Assembly: GCA_015056925.1 (NCBI GenBank)
Contig: SVFJ01000011.1
Location: 1 to 61,940 of the forward strand
DNA: 61,940 nt
Direction of reading: 5' to 3'
Source of the DNA: Lachnospiraceae bacterium
Lineage (GTDB): Bacteria; Bacillota; Clostridia; Lachnospirales; Lachnospiraceae
This document shows, in pieces, positions 9,520 to 42,759 of the stretch (the first letter of the stretch is position 1; each line of letters starts with the position of its first letter). Both the position numbers and the translations under genes were made by a program. The notes beneath the pieces were generated by a model that was not told where the DNA came from, searched no databases, and saw only the letters and a list, made by a program, of their open reading frames with translations.

Positions 9520-10166
9520 CCCCTAATTTTAGTTTTTTGTTTGGTTGAATCTTTTACACTTTTGAATTCCCTTCACACAACATTTGCGTGACTTATTTCC
9601 CCTTTTAGAATTCTCTCATAACTTAGTTGCACCCCTTATGTACAACACATGTCGTCGCTTTCTGCGATTCGCTCTCTGCAAATTTCCTTTTACACATTTC
9701 CTTTTACACAATTTCGGCTTTTACACAAATCCCCTTTTACACATTTACTTGCCTCTTACACAATTTCGAAAAGATTCCCCTTTTACACATTTGCTTCAGA
9801 TTAAAATCCCCCAATCTTAATCTGAAACACACCCCTGATTTTACATCTCTAAAAGAACCATGTTCCGTTTTCTGTAACGTTGTTCTTTAATGATATTAAA
9901 CCACTAATCCCAATTATTGTCAACCGTTTTTCGCCAAAAATCTACATTTTTTAAGGTTTTTTTGTATTTTTAGCCGTTTAAACGTGTTCAGCAGAGCGGA
10001 ACGCCGTTACTCGTTATATGTTTTATACTTCTACCTCAACTATTTCATTGAAAAATAAAGGTTTTTTAATGATGCCGTTCAAAAAAAAGTACCTACTCAG
10101 ATTGCGATAATTCCAAATCTCTTTGACGCAATCAGAACAATGTTCTTTTAAAATATTTTTAGTGTT
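9520..10166. other. 647-bp gene-free stretch
   Basis: No convincing coding sequence on either strand. It holds a cluster of degenerate TTTTACACA repeats (9686-9795), GAAC-N3-GTTC dyads at 9855-9865 and 10134-10146, and a weak GATTGCG/CGCAATC stem (10100-10133) followed at a distance by eight T on the minus strand, which may end the hybrid kinase transcript. Confidence 0.6.
9686..9795. repeat. Degenerate CTTTTACACA(A)TTT direct repeats
   Basis: Six same-direction copies of (C)TTTTACACA begin near 9687, 9701, 9718, 9734, 9753 and 9780, with intervals of 14-27 bp and four of six followed by TTT or ATTTC. A seventh TTTTACACT is at 9552. Read on the minus strand the unit is TGTGTAAAAG. Confidence 0.6.
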
Positions 10167-38798: not shown

Positions 38799-39640
38799 AC
38801 ACCGCCTAAACACCATACCATAATCGCCTGCTGCACCTCCAGCAAACATTTCTTAAACTCATATCCCACAAAATACTTTGAATCGATTACATCAGCCGAA
38901 ACCTCTTCACCTCTATAAAATGGCGGACATGGGTTCAATATCGCTCCATCATTTACCATATCCATAACAGCCTCTGTGACCTGACAGTCTCGAAATACCT
39001 CAATCGCATCTGCCGGCAAAGAGTCCGTACAAACAATATCCTTTCCTTTGATAGCCTCATAAATATTACCATATGTCATTAAGTCTTCTATTTCATATCC
39101 TTTTGCACAGCACTGTTCCAACTCAAATCCCATAACCTCAGCAGCTTCTTTCCATGTTAAACCTATGTTACCCTTTGCACCACAGAACAGATACTTATCC
39201 TTCTGAAAATCCTCTCTTATTTTGGATAGCGCATACATATCCGAAACAATTTCACAAGGATGATTCACAGATGTCATTGCATTAATTACAGGAACTGACA
39301 GATACTTTGAAAGCATCTCCACCACACCAATATCCTTATGTCGCACGACCACCAAATCAGCCCAGTTATTCAGATAACCGCATACATCCTTTAAGTCTTC
39401 TTTTTTATCAAGCGTTTCCGGCGGAAACAGAATTGTTTGTCCCCCCAACAAATGAATACCTTTTTCAAAAGAGACTCGCGTTCTAATACTAGACTCAGGG
39501 AAAAACATGACTACACACTTCCCTTTTAAGATATCTGTATACTTTCCCAGCTTAATCTCATCTGCTATGCGAAAAACATCAAATATATCCTCTGCATTAT
39601 AATCCGTTAATCTTACAAAATGTTTCATTTTGTTACGCAT
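38795..39640 (-). CDS. Aspartate/ornithine carbamoyltransferase-family protein of uncertain substrate
   Basis: 281 aa from the ATG at 39640 (GGAAG upstream), shorter than typical OTCases of about 310-335. The carbamoyl phosphate loop is present as PESSIRTRVSFEKG (near 44-57) and the HPxQ-like site as NHPCEI (near 126). The second-domain motif normally HCLP is replaced by NPCPPFYRGEEV (near 240), so the amino-acid substrate site differs from ornithine and aspartate enzymes. No arginine or pyrimidine genes are nearby; the neighbours are an ArsC-like and a HAD gene. Confidence 0.75.
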   Translation of the reverse strand: MRNKMKHFVRLTDYNAEDIFDVFRIADEIKLGKYTDILKGKCVVMFFPESSIRTRVSFEKGIHLLGGQTILFPPETLDKKEDLKDVCGYLNNWADLVVVRHKDIGVVEMLSKYLSVPVINAMTSVNHPCEIVSDMYALSKIREDFQKDKYLFCGAKGNIGLTWKEAAEVMGFELEQCCAKGYEIEDLMTYGNIYEAIKGKDIVCTDSLPADAIEVFRDCQVTEAVMDMVNDGAILNPCPPFYRGEEVSADVIDSKYFVGYEFKKCLLEVQQAIMVWCLGGV

Positions 39641-39641
39641 C

Positions 39642-39983
39642 CTACTTCCAATCCTTCCATAACTCAGGTACAAATCCTATGGTTGCCTGCTTACCATTTC
39701 TAACGATAGGAGTTTTTAGCACCTTCTGATTCTCTAAGATTTTTTCATCCTTATCCTCATCAGCAATATATTTTATCAGTGCCAAGGTATCCTTATCCTT
39801 GCAGTTCTCATCCAGCATCTTTTCAATACCGCCAACCGCCTGCTTCACACTGGTATATTCACCCTTGCTCATGCCCTTTTCTTTCATATCTATAAACTGA
39901 TACTTGATATTTCTCTCCTTGAAGTATCGCATCGCTTTCTTTGTATCAAAACACTTATTTGTTCCAAATATTTGTATGTTCAT
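39642..39983 (-). CDS. ArsC/Spx-family thioredoxin-fold protein
   Basis: 113 aa. Begins MNIQIFGTNKCFDTKKAMRY with a single active-site cysteine, continues through YQFIDMKEKG and the conserved VLKTPIVRNGKQATIGF loop. Similar to YffB/ArsC-like reductases rather than to the CxxC Spx regulator. The arsenate-reductase activity is not assured, because no ars genes are here. One base separates its stop from the carbamoyltransferase ATG. Confidence 0.82.
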   Translation of the reverse strand: MNIQIFGTNKCFDTKKAMRYFKERNIKYQFIDMKEKGMSKGEYTSVKQAVGGIEKMLDENCKDKDTLALIKYIADEDKDEKILENQKVLKTPIVRNGKQATIGFVPELWKDWK

Positions 39984-39996
39984 GGTTTTCTCCTCT

Positions 39997-40413
39997 CTAA
40001 TACGACCTTACTTGGATTCCCCACTTACCATCCTTGCATGTCACAATCCAAACATTGTCATGTTCACTCATCACGTTTCCATTAACATCTTCTCTATAAT
40101 AACTGTATAGGAAGTGAACCTTATTTTCCGAAACCAATATCGGCTCTCTCCTTGTAACCACAGTCCTTTTAAATCCTTGTTTTTTCAAATCTTCAAAAAA
40201 CATTAGTGGTAATTGCCCTGCTTCCTTCCAGCAAACAACTTCACTTCCGCTAATAATATAGTGCGGGAAATGAAAACAAGAATCCATTCCCTCTAAGTCT
40301 TCATTTTCAAAATATTTGCCAAAACTGTCCAAGCACTCTAGCGCCCCTTCTATAAGAGTCTTTTGTTGTAAGTCATCTGTGTTATGCTTAAATACTTTTA
40401 TGTAGTCAGTCAT
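39997..40413 (-). CDS. NTF2/SnoaL-like small protein
   Basis: 138 aa from the ATG at 40413, preferred because AAAGGAG lies upstream; the ATG at 40440 lacks a site. The alpha+beta pattern with LDSFGKYFENEDLEGMDSCFHFPHY followed by long strands (VHFLYSYYREDVNGNVMSEHDNVWIVTCKDGKWGI, described not as a motif) fits the DUF4440/NTF2-like fold. Function unknown; it is preceded by the 53-bp repeat array. Confidence 0.7.
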   Translation of the reverse strand: MTDYIKVFKHNTDDLQQKTLIEGALECLDSFGKYFENEDLEGMDSCFHFPHYIISGSEVVCWKEAGQLPLMFFEDLKKQGFKRTVVTRREPILVSENKVHFLYSYYREDVNGNVMSEHDNVWIVTCKDGKWGIQVRSY

Positions 40414-40455
40414 ACTTTCATGCTCTCCTTTATTATCCATTACATTCTCAACTTT

Positions 40456-40648
40456 CCGACTATTTCGAGCCTTCCACATCTCCAGTCGGGATAATTTACT
40501 TATTCTTTCCGACTGGATGCACATTTTCCATTCTCTAGTCGGGATTTTATAATTACTTTTCCCGACTGCTCACCCCTTTTTTCTTATCCAGTTGGATTTT
40601 TTGTCCTTTTACCCCCGACCGCTCGCACAATTTCTCTTCTCAGGTCGG
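40456..40648. repeat. Four-unit stem-loop/dyad array with exact 53-bp period
   Basis: Four 34-nt units at 40456-40489, 40509-40542, 40562-40595 and 40615-40648, separated by three 19-nt linkers. Each begins CCGACY and ends with its complement RGTYGG around a 22-nt interior. Arms: CCGACT/AGTCGG in units 1 and 2, CCGACT/AGTTGG (G-U wobble) in unit 3, CCGACC/GGTCGG (compensatory change) in unit 4. Interiors and linkers are mostly unrelated but pyrimidine-rich on the plus strand. The last arm overlaps the final two codons of the truncated acetyltransferase. Confidence 0.85.
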
Positions 40649-40867
40649 AAAACGTTCATTTTCATGTACAATTCCCAACCGCCACAACTCTCCTACCAAC
40701 TGCACCTTACCATCATTACATTCATAAGGAATATCCTTCTCATACTGAAATCCAAGCTTTCTCATTACATTACCAGATGCTGGATTCTTCTTAGCAAATC
40801 TGCCGACAAGCTCATGAATTTCCAATTCCCTATCAGCAAATGTCAGAATCTCCTTTAAGCCTAACAA
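40640..40867 (-). pseudogene. Truncated RimJ/RimL-type acetyltransferase (C-terminal half)
   Basis: Only about 75 residues match the C-terminal half of a GNAT enzyme: LKEILTFADRELEIHELVGRF, then ASGNVMRKLGFQYEKDI and the ending VQLVGELWRLGIVHENER. The N-terminal half and the acetyl-CoA loop are missing, and there is no good start codon or ribosome site (TTG at 40867). It is 13 bp downstream of a complete acetyltransferase of a different type. I read it as a decayed gene; the array begins in its last codons. Confidence 0.7.
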
Positions 40868-40880
40868 ATGCCTTATATTC

Positions 40881-41756
40881 TTATGCTTTGTCTTCTTTCT
40901 TCTCTGTGCTTATGTCCTCAATCACACGCCCTACATCCAGTCTGCGAACCATCTGTTCTTCAAGTACCGATCTGCCTTTTGACATATCGCCATTTAACCA
41001 CTGCCATTCCTCCATCAACTGGATTCTGCCATCTTCAAGAGTTCTCGGTGTGCTGTGACACTTACCGATTCTTACCTCATTCTTAGAATTGATATGCTGA
41101 TAATAAAAATCTAGCTCTCCATTCGTAGCTACCATTCCAAGCAACTCACCCTTAAAAATATCTTTAGCTGAATAATTTGCCCATACAACATTCCCTTTCT
41201 GATGATATTCAAACAGTGTACTGCTATCGACATCACCATTCTCCGAATTAGAAATAGGCACAAAGTACTTACCTTCATAAGATTTTTCCTCACTTACCTT
41301 AGGCAACTCTTTGACCATAACCTCATATACCAATACCTCTCCATCTCCTACCCAGATACGCTCATGCTTAAGAGTGTTATAACCTCTCTGTTCATACATA
41401 TGACATGCAGAAAGTGACGCGTCCAGCTTTGCATAGCTATGTTCTTTTGCAATTTCTTCTTCCAGACACTGCATAATGAAGCTACCATAACCATGTCCCT
41501 CATATCTTGGCAAAACATACACTCTCGTAATATGATTATCCTCATAGCTTCCCGTTCCCACCATCTTATCATCAACCTTCAATATACTGACATGCCCCTT
41601 ATCAATATCCTTCATAATATTCTCTTTGCTGTGATGATGACTAAAAAATTTTACGACATCATAGGGGTAATACTTTGGATAAACTGTTAGGATTGTTTCC
41701 TGTACTAACTTATATATTTCCTCTGCATCTTCTTTTGTTGCTCTTATATATTCCAT
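40881..41756 (-). CDS. Two-domain protein: GNAT acetyltransferase plus N-acetylglutamate-synthase-like domain
   Basis: 291 aa. Residues 1-150 are a GNAT domain (YIRATKEDAEEIYKLV, VYVLPRYEGHGYGSFIMQCLEEEI, YEQRGYNTLKHE). Residues about 163-275 are a separate beta-rich domain (YEGKYFVPISNSENGDV, EYHQKGNVVWANYSA, FYYQHINSKNEVRIGKC, EEWQWLNGD) usually annotated n-acetylglutamate synthase-like when it occurs alone in Firmicutes. The fusion may couple acetylation to a ligand domain. The C-terminal 20 residues are highly charged. Weak ribosome site. Confidence 0.8.
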   Translation of the reverse strand: MEYIRATKEDAEEIYKLVQETILTVYPKYYPYDVVKFFSHHHSKENIMKDIDKGHVSILKVDDKMVGTGSYEDNHITRVYVLPRYEGHGYGSFIMQCLEEEIAKEHSYAKLDASLSACHMYEQRGYNTLKHERIWVGDGEVLVYEVMVKELPKVSEEKSYEGKYFVPISNSENGDVDSSTLFEYHQKGNVVWANYSAKDIFKGELLGMVATNGELDFYYQHINSKNEVRIGKCHSTPRTLEDGRIQLMEEWQWLNGDMSKGRSVLEEQMVRRLDVGRVIEDISTEKKEDKA

Positions 41757-41826
41757 AGCTTCTTTCTTGTGACAGATAAATTCTCACGTTTCTGCCACAC
41801 CCTCCTTTCTTGAATTAAATCACAAA

Positions 41827-42759
41827 TTAATGTTCAATAATTTCCATTTTGATTTCATTATTTCTTGCTTCAATTTTTACCTTCCCTCCGATGGGAAATG
41901 TCATCATCGGAAATACATGTCCAAAATCTACGCCGAAAATCACAGGAATACTTGTATCTATTTTGTTCTCAACAATCTTTCTAATGACCACTTCATCCAA
42001 CTTACAGCTTTCCTCAAATCTTCCAAAGACAATTCCTTTTATGGATTCTGCTCCTTCAACCTGTAATAAAGATTGAAGATTACGGTCAAATTCATAAACA
42101 AAATAATCTCCCATGATATTATCATCTTCAATAAATAACACTTTATCTTTCAAATCTGGCATATAAGGTGTTACCTGCAATAAATTCAAAGTACAAAGGT
42201 TCCCGCCTATGATTTCTCCTTCACATATTCCTTCTTGAATGACATGATAATTACCCGCTGTTTGAGAGGGCGTAATCTGTATCGTATTTTCCCCCATCAT
42301 ACAATCAAAGAAATTCTTTTGCGTGTATTCAGATTCTTGTTCAAAACCAAAGGTACTAAAATGTGGTCCATGATATGTTACCAACCCTGTCTTTGCATAG
42401 ACTGCATTCAGCAAAACAGTAATATCTGAATATCCGCATAATATCTTAGGATTGCTTTTAATTAATTCAAAATCTAAGTACTTTAAAATTTGATTCGCGT
42501 TGAAGCCACCTATGCAGGTAATAACCATCTTCACATCCTTATCAAGAAAAGCTTCATGAATGTCATCAACTCTTGACTTAATATCAGAAGACCAGAACTC
42601 ATTCATTTCTCTACTATTCTTTGAAAAGGTAATCTTGAAACCCTGAGTTTCCAAATTGGAAAGAGCTTGTTCATAAATATTCTTTCTAACTCTTGAAAGA
42701 CTACCTGATGGTGCTATAACACGTATTTCATCCCCGTATTTTAATCTATCTGCAATCAT
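41827..42759 (-). CDS. S66 family serine peptidase (LD-carboxypeptidase / MccF-like)
   Basis: 310 aa. The catalytic triad of the S66 family is visible: nucleophile Ser111 in CGYSDIT, Glu211 in FIEDDN, and His281 in DFGHVFP; the N-terminus has IRVIAPSGS. Family members cleave L,D bonds in murein tetrapeptides or, as MccF, detoxify processed microcin C-like peptide-nucleotides. No signal peptide. The surrounding acetyltransferases favour a self-protection or detoxification role over cell wall recycling, but this is inference. Confidence 0.87.
   Translation of the reverse strand: MIADRLKYGDEIRVIAPSGSLSRVRKNIYEQALSNLETQGFKITFSKNSREMNEFWSSDIKSRVDDIHEAFLDKDVKMVITCIGGFNANQILKYLDFELIKSNPKILCGYSDITVLLNAVYAKTGLVTYHGPHFSTFGFEQESEYTQKNFFDCMMGENTIQITPSQTAGNYHVIQEGICEGEIIGGNLCTLNLLQVTPYMPDLKDKVLFIEDDNIMGDYFVYEFDRNLQSLLQVEGAESIKGIVFGRFEESCKLDEVVIRKIVENKIDTSIPVIFGVDFGHVFPMMTFPIGGKVKIEARNNEIKMEIIEH

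Follow-up and report, generated by a model that had tools for sequence, protein, structure and literature searches.

Helix-phased palindrome arrays as candidate DNA sites of a dedicated nuclease-like protein in Lachnospiraceae

On a 61,940-bp stretch of DNA from a Lachnospiraceae bacterium (contig SVFJ01000011.1 of assembly GCA_015056925.1; this whole stretch is called the window), four palindromic units follow one another at a constant step between two genes. The locus raises the question of what such an array is kept for, and whether its regularity belongs to an RNA or to double-stranded DNA.

Geometry and neighbourhood of the window array

The array was delimited at positions 40456-40648 and consists of four units of 34 bp with a start-to-start distance of exactly 53 bp. 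Units 1 (40456..40489) and 2 (40509..40542) both read CCGACT-N22-AGTCGG, unit 3 (40562..40595) reads CCGACT-N22-AGTTGG with a single different arm base, and unit 4 (40615..40648) reads CCGACC-N22-GGTCGG. The units are separated by three linkers of 19 bp (40490..40508, 40543..40561 and 40596..40614). All four were recovered by pattern search: with at most one mismatch, the arm pattern gave eight strand-matches in the window (four sites on both strands), whereas 100 shuffles of the window averaged 0.32 and never reached eight. The geometry described in an earlier note on this DNA was thereby confirmed. Both arm changes that it had pointed out, the paired one in unit 4 and the one in unit 3 that leaves a G-U pair, are present, and one of the eight arms carries one altered base. 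The statement that the arms are kept and the interiors free was also borne out, the ten core arm bases being 95% identical among the four units, the interiors 52% and the linkers 46%. The family consensus reads CCGAC Y N22 R GTCGG in its purine-rich sense, which for the window array is the minus strand.

The next gene after the array on the minus strand (39997..40413) codes for 138 aa without Pfam match. Its start at 40413 was picked by eye, after AAAGGAGAG, and leaves a gap of 42 bp to the array; a longer open reading frame to 40524 in the program-made list would overlap the array. A gene for a GNAT acetyltransferase (40881..41756, minus strand) lies on the opposite side. The exact CCGAC unit was absent at 36 named loci of this GNAT gene (39–67% identity); these loci are without the other four neighbouring proteins tested and are therefore not empty sites of the window locus. 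Elsewhere in the window, a short tandem repeat of 14–16 bp (9681-9743) has no relation to the array.

A coding repeat was rejected for the window array, as its period of 53 is not divisible by 3. A known RNA hairpin family was rejected as well, the three Rfam matches in 39500-42000 all being under the gathering score. Folding of the array was more stable than that of shuffled sequences on both strands (z −3.3 for the minus strand, z −4.8 for the plus strand), as is to be expected of any palindrome array.

The CCGAC family within and between genomes

With the fixed 34-nt pattern, 50 exact units were found in the source genome of the window (reversed control 0), 24 in G023 and 29 in G279. The units of the source genome are spread over 13 contigs, and a DNA search of this genome gave further places at 53-bp steps; the place on C64 holds one unit only. 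Across 12 arrays of the genome, 53 of 54 units are 34 nt long and the 42 intervals measure 53 bp (40) or 54 bp (2), with no interval skipped. When seven arrays were compared, arms were 98% identical, interiors 45% and linkers 41%; the arm value is biased upward, as the units were detected via their arms, a bias that does not touch the lack of skipped intervals. Near-identical units occur within the arrays of C131, C137 and C176, as would be expected of an ordinary decaying tandem duplication under no constraint. This explanation, which the earlier note had named as a refuting alternative, has next to no probability: it is contradicted by arms so much better kept than interiors across seven arrays, by the uniform unit length and by the 42 intervals without a gap. 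The dispersed palindromes of the source genome are intergenic and often tandem, and overlapping open reading frames were read as spurious. With respect to genes, CCGAC arrays occur in both orientations, and the neighbour genes of the dispersed arrays, as judged by eye, share no function.

In a pattern search of 60 genomes, 12 had any match, and more than two were found only in the source genome (50), G023 (24) and G013 (4). A scan of 397 genomes of the family gave matches in 58 of them, with counts far above the control only in the source genome and in G279, where the listed ones of the 29 units lie in 53-bp arrays. Three units were found in G292, each on its own contig, and three in G215. Two of the latter, at L033:2050-2127 (G215:C33), are 34-nt units with starts 44 bp apart, about four helical turns; the partner gene described below has six matches in G215. 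A covariance model of two units, made from five genomes, detected arrays in 4 of the 38 genomes of the genus; counting both strands, it gave 73 matches in the source genome, 63 in G023, 45 in G020 and 6 in G013.

One position is common to several genomes. An array adjoins comEC and a partner gene in five genomes from two genera (the source genome, G013, G020 and G023, with G279 from the other genus), and the partner proteins of this locus are 54–60% identical; holA is also found in the available stretches of G020 and the source genome. In the latter, comEC lies on C12, which ends in the C137 array with an overlap of 126 bp at 99%, so that C12 and C137 probably carry one array split by the assembly. 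The comEC arrays of the source genome, G013 and G279 have CCGAC/GTCGG arms, units of 34 nt and a period of 53 or 54. The G023 array (L106, G023:C149, 1080-1500) keeps the left arm CCGAC, has mostly GTGGG or GTAGG as right arm and shows a double period of 107 bp; the partner gene after it is in two pieces. Despite this split gene, other CCGAC arrays of G023 are intact and many units lie elsewhere. In G020 the array (L104:2464-2660, G020:C71) sits downstream of the partner gene, with CCAAC/GTTGG arms in at least most units, a unit length of 33 nt and a period of 52–53. Judging from the sequences, this joint arm change is possibly a specificity shift in progress. Conservation at orthologous loci, to which the earlier note had attached weight, is mostly favourable: the array stands at comEC in all five genomes, with altered arms in two of them (G023 and G020).

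Other CCGAC arrays are carried by an element some 540 bp long, whose inverted ends resemble each other (AATTTAG...TTTAG, recognised by eye) and which is found at L013:3962-4498 and with matching stretches in L010, L014, L016 and L017. This shared element looks like a miniature transposable element. The stretches with arrays inside it are 90–96% identical on five contigs; three of the five copies lie at contig ends, so the sites are possibly fewer. Neither a target-site duplication nor an empty site was established for the element when the five contigs were compared. At L014:3351-4786, two copies of TwoAYGGAY (RF01731, an Rfam candidate RNA) flank the CCGAC array inside long inverted repeats of 302 and 139 nt (94 and 93% complementary), and at L016:3486-3966 a single TwoAYGGAY copy adjoins the array. 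Arms and spacing that are kept despite diverged interiors argue for a use in place, and the similar arrays in the inverted-end element on five contigs argue for some movement too.

A partner gene and the arm sets beside its copies

In the source genome, the C137 array is followed by a gene whose 265-aa product has a PD-(D/E)XK-like C-terminus. Six copies of this gene family were identified in the genome, each with an adjacent array. Searches of Pfam, NCBIfam and solved structures gave nothing credible for the partner protein, and its N-terminal part was likewise unmatched. Among 13 partner sequences, the C-terminal motif positions RSKSE, D (DF) and EH are invariant, as are residues E162, D193 and E208, and K225 is present in at least 90%; we take E162, D193, E208 and K225 to be the PD-(D/E)XK catalytic motif. 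The C-terminus matches that of the PADLOC PDC-S68 models, which describe candidate defence proteins. The PADLOC model HEAT_CxxC_PD-DEXK matched two of the three members scanned (E 8.7e-7 and 0.0016), the third being without match. The C-terminus is thus considered a putative PD-(D/E)XK nuclease domain.

Similar domains were found at the end of larger proteins, such as plasmid proteins annotated as AAA ATPase or RecD-like helicase and a fused protein in G012, which is presumably RecQ-like as recognised by eye. Compared with these and with PDC-S68, which have the C-terminal PD-(D/E)XK domain in common, the partner protein is stand-alone, about 260 aa long and unmatched in its N-terminal half. 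On viral contigs (L165-L172) the nuclease-like domain ends long open frames of 747–1353 aa, some of them truncated by the contig; IMG/VR contigs gave only this domain in longer proteins, or nothing. Four plasmid records match the C-terminal part of the partner query, and a 4.2-kb unannotated 'Bacteriophage sp.' record holds a relative covering 88% of it.

With a profile of 13 sequences, the partner gene was detected in 126 of 397 family genomes and 114 of 334 genera, and in a class-wide draw in 29 of 391 genomes and 18 of 223 genera from several families, ten of the 29 being in the own family; in both scans at most six candidates were scored per genome, and a few weak matches may represent the nuclease-like domain alone. 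Within the genus the gene is present in 6 of 38 genomes, including all four that bear arrays, and G012 has the fused protein only; G001 has the gene (two matches) without CCGAC array. The co-occurrence of gene and array in the genus may reflect shared ancestry. Among eight genomes chosen from the CCGAC pattern scans, the gene was found in three (G279 with five matches, G215 with six, G292 with four) and in none of the other five.

Each gene copy of the source genome has its own arm set. The C137 copy goes with arms CCGAC and period 53, the C136 copy with GACGGAAAA and period 63, the C66 copy with TTGGTCTCAG and period 51, and the C22 copy with TGGTGG and period 62. Two copies lie on C130, the first with arms AGGTCCA and the second with TTGGTC, both at period 52; the array of the second is on its downstream side and is cut by the contig end. 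The other arm sets were therefore predicted to be dispersed too, which was examined in the source genome for three sets beyond CCGAC. The pattern ACGGAAA-N16-26-TTTCCGT gave 26 units (control 0) on C36, C37, C118, C132 and at two places of C136, adjacent units being 62–64 bp apart. The pattern TTGGTC-N22-27-GACCAA gave 45 units (control 0), which were split by eye into 36-nt units at 51 bp (C43, C66, C96, C127) and 37-nt units at 52 bp (C2, C32, C41, C72, C85, C130, C144, C145, C162, C183), three of the latter places holding one unit. These two subsets correspond to two gene copies. Overall, an arm set has about 4 to 13 array places in the genome, and most of the arrays found lie away from any gene copy. 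Over 32 loci, no correlation between protein identity and half-site similarity emerged from a Mantel-type test (rho 0.002, with 942 of 2000 permutations as high).

The association of gene and array was evaluated on a larger set. Using Tandem Repeats Finder with periods of 45–90, an array was detected upstream of 47 of 90 gene copies (42 with a palindromic unit), downstream of 4 of 87 (3 palindromic) and in 0 of 304 control segments. These 90 loci comprise the previously analysed ones and were taken from the better profile matches instead of at random. The remaining 43 copies had no such array upstream, which leaves about half without a clear array. A score for a 6-mer and its complement alternating within 900 bp, with a cut-off of at least 7, gave 20 of 61 loci upstream, 3 of 58 downstream and 1 of 419 control segments. 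The control segments of both analyses were taken from named contigs and are mostly coding. With the cut-off unchanged, loci of the class scan were positive in 9 of 11 cases upstream and 1 of 11 downstream; six of them are in other families and five of those six were positive, and the positives L188 and L190 have irregular spacing. The next-ranked family loci gave, again with this cut-off, 10 of 20 upstream, 1 of 20 downstream and 0 of 100 shuffles, the 20 being drawn from the next 26 by rank after omission of two already in the set, two with an internal stop and two near a contig start. Upstream of one gene copy (L134:2369-2989), a 63-bp unit that shows no clear palindrome is repeated nearly ten times; as 63 is divisible by 3, this repeat may be coding.

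Helical phasing and competing explanations

For 41 loci with 43 palindromic arrays, a set that leaves out the orthologous comEC loci of other genomes, the periods fall into 51–54 (22), 62–66 (9), 70–75 (10) and 84–86 bp (2), with none in between. A repeating step of 10.45 bp, with a phase near 0, describes them best. In 200000 uniform draws a fit to 10.5 as good as this did not occur, the loci being interrelated and not independent draws, and the fit holds for the 21 arrays outside the 51–54 cluster (best 10.4). The proposal of the earlier note that 53 bp, at nearly five helical turns, would align proteins on one side of the DNA is thus supported by related loci with periods near 5, 6, 7 and 8 turns. 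Such periods are taken as the strongest sign, at the level of sequence, of a double-stranded DNA that would be bound on one face; an RNA or a plain satellite offers no reason for them.

Arm pairing was examined in 35 stretches of two units each, taken from five genomes. Of the 12 arm pairs, 8 are invariant; pairing is lost at arm position 3 in 9 of 70 cells, and two-sided changes occur at the outermost arm pair only (6 cells). The whole-structure covariation score was matched by 1 of 500 shuffles and the number of double-change cells by 4 of 500, in sequences that are related to each other, a kinship also flagged by the tool. This comparison speaks for some coupling between the two arms. Pairing and a symmetric recognised DNA site account for this coupling equally well; the high invariance of the arms favours sequence recognition. 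The fold of the alignment joins arms of adjacent units, not arms within one unit. An RNA hairpin family was rejected for the mostly invariant arms, the covariation limited to the outermost pair and this joining of neighbouring units. The claim that pairing, not sequence, is kept has therefore little in its favour; the joint arm change of G020 fits pairing or a symmetric site. The GGA noted in some loops of the window is missing from the units of L031, L032 and L034, and the idea of a protein-sequestering RNA was not supported, as it gives no reason for helical quantisation.

The window array is probably a row of candidate double-stranded DNA sites to which a dedicated protein with a PD-(D/E)XK-like C-terminus would bind in a sequence-specific manner. 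Each partner protein would recognise one half-site, CCGAC for the window array, as an inverted pair, and spacing by integral turns would put successive protein copies on one face of the helix and allow cooperative binding. It is quite likely the N-terminal part of the protein that would bind the arms directly. An autoregulation of the partner gene through the upstream array is an evenly balanced proposal. With somewhat more confidence, the protein is expected to act in trans on the window array, where it would control or mark the site or park the enzyme. Cleavage or nicking at the arrays, leading to changes in unit number and to spread, is proposed only tentatively. What can be read directly from the sequences is the genetic coupling, the specificity of arms and period in one genome, and the phasing.

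Among the other explanations, a mobile palindrome family of the REP/RAYT kind is rather unlikely; in it the nuclease-family protein would mobilise the palindromes, the arrays would be its non-autonomous offspring and arm conservation would result from movement. The several arm-specific sets of the source genome, each next to its own gene copy, would fit this, as would the 90–96% identical stretches in the 540-bp element on five contigs (three at contig ends). Arrays with diverged interiors, that of the window included, nevertheless retain arms and exact spacing, which indicates that the arms are held after arrival. The comEC-side array is moreover common to five genomes, no target-site duplication was established, and the Y1 (HUH) transposase domain PF01797 gave no match in the source genome (97% complete; controls positive in 5 of 14). 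An array-directed guard, by which arrays on host DNA would serve as a mark of self that parks or inhibits the nuclease and unmarked DNA would be attacked, draws on the match of the C-terminal domain to that of PDC-S68 and on its place at the end of plasmid AAA ATPase/RecD-like and long viral-contig proteins; it is improbable, the genome having no more than some 4 to 13 array places for each arm set.

At the RNA level, the upstream array would be transcribed and its hairpins would inhibit the protein as in type III toxin-antitoxin systems, in which tandem repeats are described as located upstream of a nuclease-like gene (PMC6315513). That arrangement and the partial covariation of the arms against shuffles fit this explanation, which is very improbable all the same: the periods follow the DNA helix, the arms are mostly invariant, most arrays lie away from gene copies, and CCGAC arrays occur in either orientation to genes. 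A ToxN/CptN/TenpN-type Pfam domain was also absent from the 13 members at E values up to 1.

By analogy, the nearest known kind in logic is REP/BIME with its RAYT (TnpA-REP) enzyme. REP/BIME are described as short dispersed intergenic palindromes, often in tandem and of several families, whose enzyme gene lies between repeats of its own (PMC3733652, PMC8266576). The likeness lies in the dispersed and often tandem intergenic palindromes, the several families and the dedicated enzyme gene. The system described here differs in its PD-(D/E)XK-like partner in place of a Y1/HUH match, in the absence, by eye, of a GTAG/CGTC tag from the foot of the listed units, and in free interiors of fixed length with a period near integral helical turns. 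With ToxIN, CptIN and TenpIN it shares repeats upstream of a nuclease-like gene, here at 47 of 90 copies. It differs from these in a repeat longer than most of those given in PMC6315513, in orphan helix-phased palindrome arrays and in a protein without matching toxin domain. Regular repeats near a nuclease-like gene also recall CRISPR, but the constant parts here are two inverted arms, and interiors and linkers repeat within many arrays instead of being unique spacers.

No title or abstract in the open-access literature was found to describe such arrays with such a protein. On this basis, the nuclease-like gene with its phased palindrome arrays looks like an undescribed bacterial system. It is somewhat favoured that several paralogous PD-(D/E)XK-family proteins in a genome, each with a private half-site, integral-turn spacing and dispersed arrays, would form a number of orthogonal helix-phased protein-DNA assemblies on one chromosome in Clostridia and thus a new class of system. 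The helical quantisation opens a direct and cheap test of this reading. If it is true, the sets of half-site and spacing would be a natural code for how a nuclease-like protein selects DNA, and they would offer a handle on the upkeep and spread of small repeat families. At least four arm sets would coexist in the source genome, the sole genome in which multi-set dispersal was examined, and about a third of the sampled family genomes (126 of 397) would carry such unrecognised pairs of protein and phased array.
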